Of a stretch of DNA of 64,000 bases, positions 2,924 to 45,805 are shown one piece after another. The first letter of the stretch is position 1, and each line of letters opens with the position of its first letter. Source of the stretch: Streptosporangium sp. NBC_01495 (GTDB taxonomy: Bacteria; Actinomycetota; Actinomycetes; Streptosporangiales; Streptosporangiaceae); the NCBI RefSeq assembly GCF_036250735.1, contig NZ_CP109430.1, forward strand, positions 6,944,001-7,008,000, read 5' to 3'. The position numbers and the translations under genes are program-made. A model generated the notes under the pieces. The model worked only from the letters and a program-made list of their open reading frames with translations. It was not told the origin of the DNA and did no database searches.

Positions 2924-3340
2924 CTAGGCGCTGAGGGCCCGCGCGACCGTGAGGCTGTCCTCGTAGATGTGGTAGCGGGTGACGAGTCCGTCCTCGACGG
3001 TGAGGTGCAGCGCGAACGGTGAGGTGTACGCGACCCCGCCGTTCCGCACCGTCTGCGCGATCTCCCCGAACACGACGGCGTGCGCCCCGTCGACCAGGAT
3101 CCGCGTCACCGATGTGCCGTCCAGTTCGGGCACGTGATGGGCCTCCAGCGACCGGAAATGGTCCGCCACCTCGGCCCGGCCGGACCGGGGGCGAATCCAC
3201 GGCACCGCCGGATGCCCCTCAGCGGGCCAAGAGAGCTGCCAGTCGATCGGCTCGGCGAACAACTCCGCTGTACGGTCGTGATCGCCCTTGACGATCCGAC
3301 GCAGCAGCTCTTCCACGATGTCACGGGTTTCATCACTCAT
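2924..3340 (-). CDS. SnoaL-like / NTF2-like domain protein
   Basis: The protein has 138 residues. The opening helices (RDIVEELLRRIVKGDHDRTAELFAEPIDW) followed by alternating strands, the central RAEVADHFRSL segment and the final TRYHIYEDSLTVARAL are typical of small SnoaL/NTF2-like cone-shaped folds. Family members range from polyketide cyclases and isomerases to binding proteins, so the ligand cannot be named. The start is supported by an AGGAT sequence 7-8 bases upstream of ATG 3340. It stands alone: the upstream 234 bases separate it from the XRE/DUF2975 pair, and its downstream side is IS debris. Confidence 0.7.
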   Translation of the reverse strand: MSDETRDIVEELLRRIVKGDHDRTAELFAEPIDWQLSWPAEGHPAVPWIRPRSGRAEVADHFRSLEAHHVPELDGTSVTRILVDGAHAVVFGEIAQTVRNGGVAYTSPFALHLTVEDGLVTRYHIYEDSLTVARALSA

Positions 3341-3574: not shown

Positions 3575-3814
3575 TTATCGTTCTTCCCCGGGGTGATAGC
3601 CGAGCAGGTCACCTGGCTGACAGCCGAGGACTTCGCAGATCTTGGTCAGCGTGGTGAACCGGACGGCCTTGGCCCGGCCGTTCTTCAGGATGGACAGGTT
3701 GACGACGGTCACCCCGACCCTGCCGGCCAGTTCGGTGAGCGTCATGCCACGTTCTTCCAGGAGCCGGTCGAGGTGGACGGTGATGGCGTGGGTATCCGTC
3801 TCCGCGGGCGACAT
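3575..3814 (-). CDS. XRE-family helix-turn-helix regulator (79 aa)
   Basis: Almost the whole protein is a Cro/CI-type DNA-binding domain. LDRLLEERGMTLTELAGRVG forms the first helices, VVNLSILKNGRAKAV the recognition region, and FTTLTKICEVLGCQPGDLLGY the C-terminal helices. Its start codon overlaps the stop of the upstream DUF2975 gene by one base (TGATG), so the two are translationally coupled. Pairs of a DUF2975 membrane protein and a small XRE protein are widespread in bacteria; the small protein is presumed to autoregulate the pair. An A/T-rich inverted repeat upstream of the operon (4466-4496) is the obvious operator candidate. Confidence 0.85.
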   Translation of the reverse strand: MSPAETDTHAITVHLDRLLEERGMTLTELAGRVGVTVVNLSILKNGRAKAVRFTTLTKICEVLGCQPGDLLGYHPGEER

Positions 3815-4843: not shown

Positions 4844-5107
4844 ATGTCCACCAAACTCACCAGACTGGTCGCGACATCGTTCGCGGCGATCGCCCTGGCA
4901 ACTGCGGGATCCGCACTGGCGACGCCCGCCAACGCCGGCACGTCGAGCACCTCGTTCGCCGCCGCGTCCACATGGATCAAGTACGGCGACTACTCGTCAG
5001 ATGCGAAGTGCAAGGCGAAGGGCAAGCAACTGCGAGCGAATGGGACATACCTGTCGTACTACTGCGAGTACACGGGCTTTTTCACGCTGATGGTCCTGAC
5101 CAGGTAA
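4844..5107 (+). CDS. small secreted protein (87 aa)
   Basis: ATG 4844 follows a GAAGGGA ribosome-binding site at 4831-4837. Residues 1-31 form a clear signal peptide ending near TPANAG. The mature peptide is about 56 residues with two cysteines (DAKCKAKGKQL and YYCEYTG), probably one disulfide, and a basic middle. The pattern WIKYGDYSS...AKCKAKG...YYCEY recurs in small exported actinobacterial proteins of unknown function, which may be bioactive or structural. It is monocistronic and ends in a strong hairpin terminator. Confidence 0.7.
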   Translation: MSTKLTRLVATSFAAIALATAGSALATPANAGTSSTSFAAASTWIKYGDYSSDAKCKAKGKQLRANGTYLSYYCEYTGFFTLMVLTR

Positions 5108-40888: not shown

Positions 40889-41310
40889 TGATGAGCCCTG
40901 CCCCCGGGTGGGGGCACGGCGGCCGGTTGGATTTCTATAGGGACACCGGCCCGAAGACCGACATTCGCCGCGACGGCGTGGCTTGCACGTCGCGACGCCA
41001 GAAGTTACCCCGATCTCCAACTTTCGGCAAAGCATTCTCAAAATCAGGAGGTCGAACGAGCCTCTTGATCTTCCTGTTACCCCTGCTTAATGACTATTTA
41101 TGCTATTGAGATATGACTCTCGTCACATCCTTCGCATCACACCCTGATAAATCACAATTCTGTAATATTCATCACACTTACCATGATCCAGGTTTGATCC
41201 CGGCGGATGGACCGTTCCCGGGCGATCGGCCGGACGACTTCGGCGCCCGGCGCACGCGCGGGCGCCGTGGATCACCCCCCGGAGACCCGCCTCGACGATC
41301 TTTAATCCGG
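40889..41310. promoter_or_regulatory. A/T-rich promoter region upstream of the riboswitch
   Basis: No gene is seen. The A/T content rises from about 41030 to 41200, as expected for a promoter of the minus-strand riboswitch transcript. Four TCACA/TGTGA half-sites stand at 41123-41127, 41137-41141, 41152-41156 and 41172-41176; TGTGATGAATATTAC is close to the Crp consensus half (GTGA-N6). An extra GC hairpin lies at 40897-40915 (GCCCCC/GGGGGC type). Confidence 0.4.
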
Positions 41311-41524
41311 CGGCGGGGGTGGACCCGCAACGGAACCGTTTCGTACGTTAAGCCGGTCCGGTCAGGTCAGAGGGGGCGCTGAACGGGGTCGGCAGGGAGT
41401 CGTCAACGTACGTTCCGGTTCTGGCGCAGACCGCTTTCGATCTTGATTGTGCGGAGGATCGCCCTGGTGGAGTGATGTTCGGTGATGGTGATCTACGTGT
41501 CCGGAAGTCCTCAGTAACGGACAA
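41311..41524 (+). repeat. left ~214-bp inverted repeat of the oxidoreductase cassette
   Basis: This block is nearly the reverse complement of 44690-44898. Agreement runs from CGGGGGTGGACC outward end to GTAACGGACAAG at the inner end, with a 5-bp insertion (an extra CCGGT) and about ten substitutions. It contains GGGGGCGCTGAACGGGG and two ACGTACGTT motifs. Confidence 0.9.
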
Positions 41525-41773
41525 GATCGGATTATGGGTTATCAACACGAGTTCGTGAGCGCTATGTAATGGCCTGATCGCTTACCGCTGCAAAGAGACC
41601 AACCACAGTGCGTCGACCGTTACATACCTCACAACCCGCGAAGTGCCGATGCCAATCGGTAACTCGGCACTTCATTCTCATGATCCTGCCGGCCGTTGTT
41701 GGGGGTGACTGTCTGGATGGTCACGCAGATCTCGGTAGCCGAACTGGGCGCCCTGCTCGGTCGGTGCCGGTTG

Positions 41774-42775
41774 TCACTGAACGGGGCCGGGCTGATCGGC
41801 ATCGTGATCAACCAGGACAGTGATCACTTTCTTGCCTCGAGCGTGGCCGGTCTCAGCTGCTTGGTGGGCGTGTCCGATGTCCTGCAGTTGGTAGATCTCC
41901 TCCACGATCGGGCGCAGCCTGCCCTGGTCGACGTAGTCGGCGAGTGCCGCCAGGTCCGTTCGGCGGGAGCGGGCCATCATCAGGCGCACGCGTGGCCCTG
42001 GCAGGACGGCCGAGCGCAACGCGAAGGCCATCGCATCGGCGGAGGTGGTCATCATCCTGCCGCGCGGGCGAAGCAGGCGCCGGTAGGCGTCGAGCGAGGT
42101 GCCATGGCAGTCGAGGATCACGTCGAAGTCGCCACTCAGACGGTCTGGGGCGGCGTAGTCGAGGGTATGGCCGGCGCCGAGGTCGCGGCAGAAGGCGTGG
42201 TTGGCCGGGCTGGCCACGGCGGTGACCTTGGCGCCCATGGCCTGGCCCAGTTGGATCGCGGCGCTGCCCACCCCGCCGCTGGCGCCGACCACCAACAGGT
42301 CTTCACCTGGCTTGAGCCGTACCACATCGCGTAGCGCACGCAACGCGGTCACGCCGACGCTGGGCAGGGCGGCTGCCCTCACCAGGCCAACTGTGGTCGG
42401 CGCCGCGCTGACGGCGGACGGCTTGGCAGTGAGGTATTCGGCCGCGGCTCCCGCGCGGCCCGCCACGTCGCCGAGGAATCCCCACACCCGCTGCCCGACG
42501 GCCAGGTCACTCACTCCTGCGCCGAGCGCGGTCACTTCGCCGGCGAAGTCCAGCCCGGTCCGTTTGGGGAAACGCCGCCCGGACATGATCTTCATGCCGC
42601 CGGAGCGGATCTTCACGTCGATCGGGTTGATGCTGGAGCCGTGCACGCGGATGAGCACCTCTCCGGCCCGGGGCTCAGGCGCGGGAACGGTGCGTACGGC
42701 CAGCTCCTCCGCGCTGCCGTACCGGTCGTATTCGACAGTGCGCATCATCGAAGATCCATTCATCGAAGGATTCAT
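41774..42775 (-). CDS. MDR-family NAD(P)-dependent oxidoreductase (quinone oxidoreductase-like) 1
   Basis: The 333-residue enzyme is a zinc-independent medium-chain dehydrogenase. GroES-like N-terminal part: YGSAEELAVRTVPAPEPRAGEVLIRVHGSSINPIDVKIRSG. Rossmann motif: LLVVGASGGVGSAAIQLGQ near residue 165. C-terminal HQAAETGHARGKKVI is the usual family end. It probably reduces quinones or enones with NADPH. Its ATG 42775 overlaps the stop of the second oxidoreductase by four bases; ATG 42748 (MMRTVEYDRYG) is an alternative start. Second gene of a two-gene operon repressed by the divergent TetR protein. Confidence 0.88.
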   Translation of the reverse strand: MNPSMNGSSMMRTVEYDRYGSAEELAVRTVPAPEPRAGEVLIRVHGSSINPIDVKIRSGGMKIMSGRRFPKRTGLDFAGEVTALGAGVSDLAVGQRVWGFLGDVAGRAGAAAEYLTAKPSAVSAAPTTVGLVRAAALPSVGVTALRALRDVVRLKPGEDLLVVGASGGVGSAAIQLGQAMGAKVTAVASPANHAFCRDLGAGHTLDYAAPDRLSGDFDVILDCHGTSLDAYRRLLRPRGRMMTTSADAMAFALRSAVLPGPRVRLMMARSRRTDLAALADYVDQGRLRPIVEEIYQLQDIGHAHQAAETGHARGKKVITVLVDHDADQPGPVQ

Positions 42776-43767
42776 CGAAGGTCCATGGAGACGACGAGCT
42801 TGCCGCGGGTGTGTGCGGTGGCGAGGTCGCGGTAGGCCTGCACGGCGTCCTCGAGCCGGTAGCGTCTGCTGATCGGGTCGGGCAGTGTGCCTGCGACCGC
42901 GAGGGCCGCGATCGTGGAGAAGGTGTCGGGCCGGGCTGCGGTCGTGCCCATCACCACGGTTACCGTGAGGTCCTCGCGGGCGAACGCGGACGGCTCCGGG
43001 GTGCCGGGCGTGGTGCTGAGCAGGCGCCCTGCCGGGCGGATCGCCTTGGCAGCCCGCACCACTGCCTCGCCTTCGAGTGCCAGATTGACGACCGCGTCGA
43101 CCCCCTCGGGGTGGCGGCGCAGGGTCTCTTCGACCACGTCGGTCGCGAGATAGTCGATCACGCCGGCCGCTCCGAGTCCTCGGACGTAGCCCTCGTCCGC
43201 GGGTGCCGTGGTGGCGATGACCTCGAGCTTCTCCCCGGCCAGCAGCGGCACGACCACGCTGCCGATACCGCCACCCGCACCGATCACCAGGACCGTTTCG
43301 CCCGGCTGGAACCCTCCGGCCGCCATCACCGCCAGGCCCGTCATGCCAGTGCTCGGCAGCGCCGCCGCATGTTCGACACTCAATCCCTGGGGGCGCCGGG
43401 CAATGTATGCGCCGGCGTGAAAGAGCGCGTACTCGGCCATCGCGCCCGAGGTGACCGCAGGAATGCCGACCCCGGCGGCGAACGACGGCGGCGCCCCGAA
43501 CCCGAAGACCTCCTCGCCCACCGCGAACCCGGCCACCTCCGGGCCCAGCTTGGTCACCGTCCCGGCGAAGTCAGTGCCCAGCACACAGGGGAAGTCCAGC
43601 GGCACCAGGTCGCGGACCGTGCCCTCGCTCATCAGCAGGTCTGCGGGATTGAGCGAGGCCGCGCCGATCCGCACCTGAAGCTGGCCGGGACCCGGATCCG
43701 GGATGGGCAGCTCCTCGATGCCGAAGGTGTCGGGTGTGCCGTACTTCCTTGCCACCAAGGCCTTCAT
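42772..43767 (-). CDS. MDR-family NAD(P)-dependent oxidoreductase 2
   Basis: The 331-residue protein begins MKALVARKYGTPDTFGIEEL, with the GroES-like domain (SLNPADLLMSEG, LGTDFAGTVTKLGPEVAGF), the cofactor loop ETVLVIGAGGGIGSVVVPLL near residue 155 and C-terminal AVQAYRDLATAHTRGKLVVS. No structural or catalytic zinc cysteines are visible, so it is a quinone-reductase-like MDR. It is about 30% similar by eye to the next gene, which suggests an old duplication. GGAGG precedes ATG 43767. The promoter contains the TetR palindrome 43783-43797. Confidence 0.9.
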   Translation of the reverse strand: MKALVARKYGTPDTFGIEELPIPDPGPGQLQVRIGAASLNPADLLMSEGTVRDLVPLDFPCVLGTDFAGTVTKLGPEVAGFAVGEEVFGFGAPPSFAAGVGIPAVTSGAMAEYALFHAGAYIARRPQGLSVEHAAALPSTGMTGLAVMAAGGFQPGETVLVIGAGGGIGSVVVPLLAGEKLEVIATTAPADEGYVRGLGAAGVIDYLATDVVEETLRRHPEGVDAVVNLALEGEAVVRAAKAIRPAGRLLSTTPGTPEPSAFAREDLTVTVVMGTTAARPDTFSTIAALAVAGTLPDPISRRYRLEDAVQAYRDLATAHTRGKLVVSMDLR

Positions 43768-43782
43768 GGTTGTCCTCCAAAC

Positions 43783-43797
43783 GAGACAATATGTCTC
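43783..43797. promoter_or_regulatory. TetR-type operator between oxidoreductase and repressor genes
   Basis: GAGACA-ATA-TGTCTC is a perfect palindrome (6-bp arms, 3-base spacer), 16 bases upstream of the MDR start and 100 bases before the TetR start. It is the natural binding site for the divergent repressor. Confidence 0.7.
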
Positions 43798-43897
43798 AGA
43801 TCAGGCATGATGTCCGCAAGCAATAGTGCCGCCACTTCAGGCGGGCGACCAGTCTCACTTCCGCAGCTATGTACCGACCTGGACAAGGAGCCATGAA

Positions 43898-44473
43898 TTG
43901 TCTCGCTCACCGGACAACGTCCGGGTGCGCCGCACCCGCAAGCTGCTCCGCGAGGCCCTGGTCGAGCTCATCGAGGAGCGCGGATTCGACCGGCTCACCG
44001 TGGGCGAGATCACCGAGCGGGCGATGGTCAGCCGGGCCGCCTTCTACCGCAACTACCGCGACAAGTACCACCTCGTGGAGCAGGTCTTCGAGGAAGCGAT
44101 GGACGCTCTGCTGGGCACGATGGCCGATGATGTTCAGAAGCCACCGCTGGAACGATGGGTGGTCTTCTTCGCGCACATCGCCGAATACCATCGCCTCTAC
44201 GGCGCGCTACTGGGCAAGAACGGCAGCCCCTGGTTCGCCGCGAAGATGCGGCAGTCACTGGCCGACATGGTCACCGAGCACCTTCGGCCGCCTCCATCGT
44301 CCGACGGGCTTGTGCCGATCGTCCTGGGGGGAATGTTCGTCCAGGCCATCACGTGGTGGCTGGAGAACGGCAGGCCATCCTCCCCACGAGAGATCGCCAC
44401 TCGCACAGGACGGCTCGCCTCGGCCATCATCACCGAGACCAACAACTCGACCACTCCGATGCGCGACCGCTGA
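43898..44473 (+). CDS. TetR-family repressor
   Basis: The 191-residue regulator starts at TTG 43898, placed seven bases after AAGGAG (43885-43890). An ATG at 43893 is better visible but is in another frame, and the long upstream frame to 43826 has no ribosome site. The helix-turn-helix is VRRTRKLLREALVELIEERGF, TVGEITERAMVSRAAFYRNY, RDKYHLVEQVFEE. The C-terminal ligand domain ends with MFVQAITWWLENGRPSSPREIA, common in TetR proteins controlling oxidoreductases. It is divergent from the MDR operon and probably controls it through GAGACA-ATA-TGTCTC. Confidence 0.88.
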   Translation: MSRSPDNVRVRRTRKLLREALVELIEERGFDRLTVGEITERAMVSRAAFYRNYRDKYHLVEQVFEEAMDALLGTMADDVQKPPLERWVVFFAHIAEYHRLYGALLGKNGSPWFAAKMRQSLADMVTEHLRPPPSSDGLVPIVLGGMFVQAITWWLENGRPSSPREIATRTGRLASAIITETNNSTTPMRDR

Positions 44474-44579
44474 CGGCCCGGATCCGAGACGTCGTCGGTA
44501 ATCAGATTGTCGGAGGCGGCCACTCAACTGTCCGGCCCTTGCCTGTGGCCTATCTACCGTCGGATTCGCACCCGGATCA

Positions 44580-44690
44580 GAAGGAGGCCTGCTGCAGCGC
44601 CCGGTAAGCCCGGTAGATGGTGCCGCGGCCGACCCCCCAGGGCACGGGCGATCTCGGCCACGGTGACGCCTTGGGCCGCGTATGACCTTG
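44580..44690 (-). pseudogene. serine recombinase (resolvase-type) C-terminal remnant
   Basis: The minus strand reads AAQGVTVAEIARALG and, after one extra base, GVGRGTIYRAYRALQQAS, the helix-turn-helix that ends Tn3-type resolvases and invertases. The catalytic N-terminus is missing and the frame is broken. It abuts the right inverted repeat, so it is probably a leftover of the element that made the repeats. Confidence 0.6.
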
Positions 44691-44898
44691 TCCGTTACCG
44701 GGGACTTCCGGACACGTAGATCACCATCACCGAACATCACTCCACCAGGGCGATCCTCCGCACAATCAAGATCGAAAACGGTCTGCGCCGGAACCGGAAC
44801 GTACGTTGACGACTCCCTGCCGACCCCGTTCAGCGCCCCCTCTGACCTGACCGGCTTAACGTACGAAACGATTCCGTTGCAGGTCCACCCCCGCGGCG
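44690..44898 (-). repeat. right ~209-bp inverted repeat of the oxidoreductase cassette
   Basis: Nearly the reverse complement of 41311-41524 (over 90% identity by eye). The two copies enclose about 3.2 kb with both oxidoreductase genes, the TetR gene and the recombinase remnant. From 44899 to 44977 no gene is present; the phosphoribosyltransferase start follows. Confidence 0.9.
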
Positions 44899-44977
44899 TC
44901 GAACACAGGGGTTATATACCTGTTTGGGTAATTTTTGGCGGGGTAAGGCAGGCGCGTACTTCAGGGAGGCGGTAATC

Positions 44978-45805
44978 ATGTCGAACCGCTTGTTCCAGGA
45001 CAGACACGACGCGGGCCGGGTGCTCGCGGGTCTCCTCGACACGTACCGGGGACGGCCCGACATCGTCGTCCTGGGCCTGCCCCGGGGCGGTGTACCCGTG
45101 GCGTACGAGATCGCGACGGCCCTGGGCGCCCCGCTCGACGTCTTCCTCGTCCGCAAGCTCGGCACTCCCGGAAGGGAGGAGCTCGCGATGGGGGCGATCT
45201 CCAGCGGCGGGGTGACCGTCCTCAACGAGGGCGTCGTCGGGGGCCTCGGCATCGCGCCGGAGACCGTCCGGCGGGTCGCCCGGCGCGAGCGGCGGGAGCT
45301 GCTCCGGCGCGAGCGGGCCTACCGTGAGGGGCGCCCGCCCCCGGACCTCGCGGGCAGGACCGTCATCGTGGTGGACGACGGCCTCGCGACGGGGGCGAGC
45401 ATGCGCGCCGCCCTCCAGGCCCTGCGCCGTCTCCGGCCCGCCAGGACCGTCGTCGCCGTACCGGCCGCGCCGGAGTCCGCCTGCCAGGACCTCGCCGCCG
45501 TGGTGGACGAGGTCGTCTGCGCCACCACGCCGTCGCATTTTTTCGCGGTCGGGCAGTCGTACCGGGACTTCACCCAGACGACCGACGAGGAGGTGTGCGA
45601 TCTTCTCCGCGCCACGTCGGGTTCGTCTCCCGGCACCGCCGAATCTTCCATCGGCGTGGAGCCTTCCGGCACCGCCGAGCCTTCCACCGCTGTCGAGTCT
45701 TCCGGAACCGCCGACAAGGCCGGCGAGAACCCGCGGCCCGCCGCGGTCAGGGGCGGACGGCTCCGACGATCCCGCGGCCGTAGGCGGACAGCGGGACGAC
45801 CTTGA
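44978..45805 (+). CDS. phosphoribosyltransferase-domain protein with repeat-like tail
   Basis: The 275-residue protein has the type I PRTase fold: [44 protein letters not shown], and the PRPP-binding loop [20 protein letters not shown] near residue 125-145. [20 protein letters not shown] matches the end of stand-alone PRTases fused or linked to hydrolases in other bacteria. The last 70 residues are a degenerate tail ([28 protein letters not shown]) and a basic end. GGGAGGCGG precedes ATG 44978. Its 3' end overlaps the convergent NlpC/P60 gene by 59 bp. Confidence 0.85.

Follow-up and report, generated by a model that had tools for sequence, protein, structure and literature searches.

A probable non-autonomous Tn3-family transposon bounded by two inverted copies of one end in Streptosporangium sp. 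NBC_01495

The stretch of Streptosporangium sp. NBC_01495 analyzed here (contig NZ_CP109430.1, positions 6,944,001 to 7,008,000; 64,000 nucleotides, hereafter the window) contains two repeats of about 215 bp in opposite orientation, which enclose two oxidoreductase genes, a TetR-family regulator gene and a piece of a recombinase gene. What kind of unit do these repeats delimit? An original prediction, made from the DNA alone, had placed two near-identical inverted blocks at 41311-41524 and 44690-44898, which is correct within a few bases, and had left the choice between a transposon-like composite with ends that no longer have their transposases, an invertible segment and a hitchhiking cassette. 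We conclude that the segment 41315-44892 (3,578 bp) is very probably a non-autonomous transposon of the Tn3 family, the ends of which are two inverted copies of the end that lies on the resolvase (tnpR) side in its lineage.

Exact ends and an empty site

The inverted repeats extend over 41310-41529 and 44683-44897 and share 94% identity over 219 aligned bases with one 5-bp indel. Coincidence is not a plausible origin for such a pair. No further copy of the ~215-bp repeat was found within the window, and no match to it among plasmids and phages. At the outer edge of each repeat lies a 38-bp terminal inverted repeat (IR; GGGGGTGGACC...ACGTTAAG), the outermost 38 bases reading GGGGGTGGACCYGCAACGGAAYCGTTTCGTACGTTAAG from outside. 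The left IR (41315-41352, plus strand, GGGGGTGGACCCGCAACGGAACCGTTTCGTACGTTAAG) corresponds to a 38-bp end of identical type in relatives, and the right IR (44855-44892, minus strand) has 36 of 38 bases as in the left one. In length, in their GGGG start and in position, these ends are typical of the Tn3 family. A Tn3-type terminus had been guessed before; the guess was right in kind but not in sequence, since it pointed to GGGGGCGCTGAAC...ACGTACGTT inside the arm rather than to the outermost 38 bp. The five bases directly outside both ends are GCGGC (41310-41314 on the left, 44893-44897 on the right), the target-site duplication that the original prediction had proposed to look for in the outer flanks. 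The probability of an identical 5-mer by chance in this stretch is ~0.0026.

The flanks, joined with the element removed and a single GCGGC retained, were searched in 16 Streptosporangium genomes including S. canum. We found the uninterrupted site in two Streptosporangium species (G008 and G003), where it runs from the left flank through the target into the first eight bases of the right flank, matched at 8/8 positions in G008 and at 7/8 in G003. Both empty sites (G003 and G008) have the target once, as GCGGC and GCCGC. In G008 it lies, as read from the sequence, at the 3' end of an apparent methyltransferase gene on the minus strand. The IRs, the 5-bp duplication and the empty site together show insertion as a single unit, which makes the earlier idea of a composite transposon-like element without transposases close to right.

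Beyond the right end, a block with a phosphoribosyltransferase gene (44906 to ~45717) replaces the methyltransferase gene that in G008 sits between the same two NlpC/P60 genes; the phosphoribosyltransferase is placed elsewhere in other congeners. This replacement is a separate event, because its start, 8 bp off the transposon, falls outside the duplication.

The lineage behind the ends and its missing transposase

The same 38-bp end occurs in 9 of 299 Streptosporangiaceae genomes, against none for a reversed control pattern; among 343 genomes in the family, 22 contain the ~215-bp arm, whole or in part. Named contigs with such ends belong to Streptosporangium, Sphaerisporangium, Nonomuraea and Acrocarpospora. 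The left arm of the window is 74-82% identical to seven other ends of the family, 82% being the maximum against any other copy. A description of this Streptosporangiaceae Tn3 lineage was not found in the literature searched.

Three relatives (L093, L050, and L178) share the order IR, res sites I, II and III, and tnpR. In L093, the IR occupies positions 1-38, res site I 182-207 (TGTCCGGAAGTCC/TCAGTAACGGACA) and sites II and III ~250-322, followed by tnpR. The lineage tnpR encodes a serine resolvase with matches to the gamma-delta and Tn3 resolvases. In the canonical Tn3 plan, site III lies beside tnpR and exchange takes place at site I (PMC7157771); the lineage layout fits this plan, because its site III adjoins tnpR and exchange would fall at site I. 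The opposite end is seen in a full-length relative on a Sphaerisporangium contig (L091), with IRs at 3325 and 14511 (11.2 kb apart) and its own 5-bp duplication, TTACC, outside both ends. A decayed tnpA start lies 0.2 kb inside its left end, opposite the window-type end, and its cargo comprises a FAD monooxygenase, an MFS protein and a TetR regulator. The tnpA remains adjoin the same IR in L091 and in the Nonomuraea solani copies (L088/L184). The TnpA N-terminus in N. solani is the same as in L091; it has a DUF4158 domain and matches the Tn4430 transposase (PDB 7qd4; 2.9e-8). Tn4430 itself uses the tyrosine recombinase TnpI (PMC7157771), unlike the serine resolvase of the window lineage. In N. 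solani, ~137 bp of the tnpR-side end are fused into the tnpA start at the tnpA-side end, so ends have been exchanged more than once in the lineage.

Measured against these relatives, both arms of the window element (left 41315-41529, plus strand; right 44684-44892, minus strand) consist of the IR, ~145 bp and res site I, and they are 94-96% identical to each other. The site I-like dyad of the left arm (TGTCCGGAAGTCCTCAGTAACGGACA, 41498-41523, plus strand) is kept in all full-length ends; that of the right arm lies at 44689-44714 (minus strand). The original prediction had noticed a frameshifted serine-recombinase C-terminus touching the inner edge of the right repeat. This piece (44580-44682, minus strand) is 84-88% identical in DNA to the tnpR gene behind the same end in L093 and L050 and, on this sequence match, is the 3' end of the transposon's own tnpR. 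The right arm is the tnpR-side end with a deletion that starts just inside site I and leaves the final ~100 bp of tnpR; the left arm is a second, inverted copy likewise cut at site I. Site I and the tnpR remnant are present in the element; sites II and III are absent. The order of the ends in complete relatives and the tnpR remnant therefore show that the window element bears the tnpR-side end twice, in inverted orientation.

The window element has neither tnpA nor a tnpA-side end. No match to the lineage TnpA N-terminus was found in the genome of NBC_01495 at E<=1e-60, a level reached in 1 of 251 family genomes, although 15 Tn3 tnpA genes or pieces of other kinds are present. In the assembled genome, the element is accordingly an orphan. 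Two intact Tn3 transposases of the same genome (L039 and L040) were excluded as its source, their best IR pairs being unrelated, and no convincing IR pair was found for a third (L041). The L040 locus contains a complete-looking Tn3-family element of another lineage (L040 6466-15704, G000:C1:304465-313703), which has an intact tnpA and 38-bp IRs and is flanked by GATTA at either end. The region G000:C1:4.48-4.82 Mb is crowded with broken and fragmentary Tn3 tnpA genes and looks like a transposon graveyard. A third copy of the end (79% identical) also lies in this genome, at G000:C1:4548920 (L004 8921), inserted within a DUF4158 transposase reading frame; no second IR was found within ~29 kb of it.

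In its layout, the lineage matches Tn4556 of Streptomyces, also of the Tn3 family, which has 38-bp IRs, a 5-bp target duplication, an inward tnpA at the left IR, an inward resolvase gene from the right, passengers in between and a putative res between the resolvase gene and the right IR (PMC6403206). Tn4556 differs from the window element, which has no tnpA side, in keeping both ends together with an intact tnpA. Its resolvase was reported with a tyrosine-recombinase motif, whereas that of the window lineage is a serine resolvase.

Junctions at res site I and the origin of two like ends

The remaining question is how one end came to form both borders of the element, and why res site I is where ends of this lineage stop. 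We compared 16 tnpR-side ends. Homology continues beyond site I in seven and is lost there in nine, namely the two window arms and L048, L179, L180, L181, L182, L185, and L186. Beyond site I, the scores of these nine ends are at the level of shuffled sequence, and the DNA that follows is mutually unrelated. In L180 and L182 homology ends at 195-196, the dyad centre and expected strand-exchange point. Other stops lie inside site II (L004 and L095) or at site III (L047). For independent events with breakpoints spread uniformly over the 0.9 kb of IR, res and tnpR, the probability of nine in the site-I interval would be ~1e-7. Elsewhere in the Tn3 family, homology between Tn5501, TnTsp1 and Tn5501.12 likewise breaks down at res site I, which was interpreted as resolvase recombination that imports new modules (PMC7157771). 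That case concerns toxin-antitoxin modules in other subgroups and not two inverted arms. By analogy, resolvase-mediated exchange at res site I is likely in the present lineage as well.

A more tentative extension, which we consider possible rather than probable, is that res site I serves as a docking point at which resolvase repeatedly joins an IR-bearing arm to unrelated DNA. Two such arms with their heads outward would then form cargo-bearing 'R-R' transposons that any relative's TnpA could mobilize, without their ever having had a tnpA side. Apart from the window element, the only further R-R case found is doubtful and degraded: in L188, two pieces of the tnpR-side end (3605-3751 and 5033-5095), separated by 1.3 kb and pointing in opposite directions, lie next to a serine-recombinase-like reading frame and are possibly a decayed second element of this kind.

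The alternative that comes closest in architecture is a TIME-COMP in the strict sense, in which two complete Tn3-derived miniatures (TIMEs), each with IRs at both ends and capable of free existence, flank and move cargo. TIME-COMP1 (PMC4133298) and TIME-COMPs with inverted TIME244 (PMC13367494) likewise enclose unrelated cargo between inverted Tn3-derived blocks that bear res and are of comparable length, lack tnpA and have a 5-bp duplication, and one of them, TIME244 with tet(A) in inverted arrangement (3,414 bp), is near the 3.6 kb found here. TIME-COMPs move by TnpA supplied in trans, acting on two like outer IRs (PMC13367494, PMC4133298). The duplication around the whole (5 or 6 bp in TIME-COMPs, GCGGC here) and the lack of working transposition genes, with a tnpR remnant only, are common to both. 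In the window, however, each arm has a single, outer IR; no IR was detected at the inner edge of either arm when up to 13 mismatches in 38 were allowed. Each block moreover equals a natural transposon end, that of a larger element, truncated at res site I, and the right block keeps its tnpR remnant. Because each arm has a single IR, the element falls outside the TIME-COMP definition although its architecture works alike, and we regard the strict version as unlikely. Short elements with two IRs do exist (L047, L049, L052, and L056), and a reading of the single repeats as miniature inverted-repeat transposable elements was tried on them and rejected: no 5-bp duplication was visible by eye, and none matched the window arms from end to end. 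At the start of another contig (G117:C44; L094 2-56), two IRs stand head to head in a near-perfect ~55-bp palindrome, a structure that could reflect either a folded transposon end or an artefact of assembly.

An invertible segment, with the cargo flipped between the arms by resolvase or homologous recombination, has a precedent in the inverted internal structures that res-bearing inverted copies give in 52 of 114 tet(A) TIME-COMPs (PMC13367494), and arms that are 94% identical would suit it. Both arms retain site I alone, though, and inversion by resolvase is less likely here because sites II and III are gone and tnpR is broken. Inversion of the cargo by homologous recombination between the arms is possible, but a second orientation was not seen in the one assembly; as an account of the locus, we judge inversion quite improbable. 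Gene conversion is less improbable, even if we doubt it. A full Tn3 transposon would have had its left (tnpA) end overwritten by its right end with no site-specific step, a course that suits arms 96% alike to each other yet at most 82% identical to any other copy, and one that the N. solani tnpA-side end, with its ~137 bp of tnpR-side end fused into tnpA, recalls. Gene conversion would not be expected to terminate at res site I, however, as 9 of the 16 ends do, and three of the seven differences between the arms lie in the inner half of site I (p ~0.03).

The preferred reading is that of a non-autonomous Tn3-family transposon with ends from an actinobacterial lineage. Its arms would most likely have arisen by recombination at res site I, the recurrent junction between arm and other DNA in this lineage. 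Mobility would once have depended on a TnpA that was supplied in trans and recognized both outer IRs, with movement by paste-and-copy transposition, and insertion at the 3' end of the methyltransferase gene would have produced the GCGGC duplication. Several points weigh against it. The res sites were assigned solely from homology and symmetry, and the low conservation of the spacer that separates site I from site II places several of the site-I junctions to ~40 bp at best. The DNA next to some single ends may be that of the host instead of cargo, and no intermediate was seen on the route to two same-side ends. Just 8 bp of the right flank precede the separate rearrangement at 44906-45717, which leaves little sequence in support of the right side of the empty site.

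Cargo genes and meaning of the element

The cargo (41774-44473) agrees with the original prediction of two coupled MDR oxidoreductases, a divergent TetR gene and a palindrome. The two reductase genes (41774-42775 and 42772-43767, both minus strand) overlap by 4 bp and encode reductases of the MDR family, the first of them predicted to be of the NAD(P)H:quinone/enone type. Reductase 1 has PF08240, PF00107 and PF13602 domains and reductase 2 has PF08240 and PF13602; the best NCBIfam match of both is TIGR02824 (PIG3 quinone oxidoreductase subfamily), below the cut-off. Just upstream of reductase 2 lies a 15-bp palindrome (GAGACAATATGTCTC, 43783-43797), from its position a probable TetR operator. 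The regulator gene (43826-44473, plus strand; PF00440, 1.3e-11, and PF14278; start codon uncertain) points toward the right arm. The cargo is likely to comprise a two-gene operon whose inducible reductases act on a quinone- or enone-like compound, and the repressor would probably respond to the compound that the reductases handle.

The closest DNA relatives of the cargo (66-74%) come from different genera within the family or class and from a single congener (G010, 67%), and the two reductases are apart wherever both were seen. A genus-conserved cassette was excluded, as the long matches reach at most 74%, are mostly from outside the genus and have the genes apart. The original prediction had set against itself the case of repeats occurring singly at unrelated loci while relatives carry the MDR and TetR genes at this locus without repeats. 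Single repeats do occur at such loci, but as ends of related elements with other neighbours, and at this locus the cargo was not seen in any member of the genus. The different neighbours sought around the same repeats were indeed found: genes for a ketopantoate-reductase-like protein, a P450 and a TetR protein beside L004, for a FAD hydroxylase and a TetR protein beside L048, for SDR, aldo/keto reductase and helix-turn-helix proteins beside L085, and for an aldo/keto reductase and an MmyB-like protein beside L095. A redox enzyme and a regulator thus adjoin the lineage ends in these four and in L091. TetR_N domains were found in 5 of 27 genes inside and 1 of 32 outside, small counts based on rough gene calls; as redox and regulator genes are common in these genomes, we claim no enrichment.

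A pair of puzzling repeats can now be understood as an insertion with exact ends, and the analysis reveals a Tn3 lineage of the Streptosporangiaceae. Annotation pipelines can overlook such units because they carry no transposase. The acquisition of passenger genes by Tn3 transposons has usually been argued from single examples; if the accumulation of junctions at site I holds, it would offer a concrete route by which these transposons pick up such genes.

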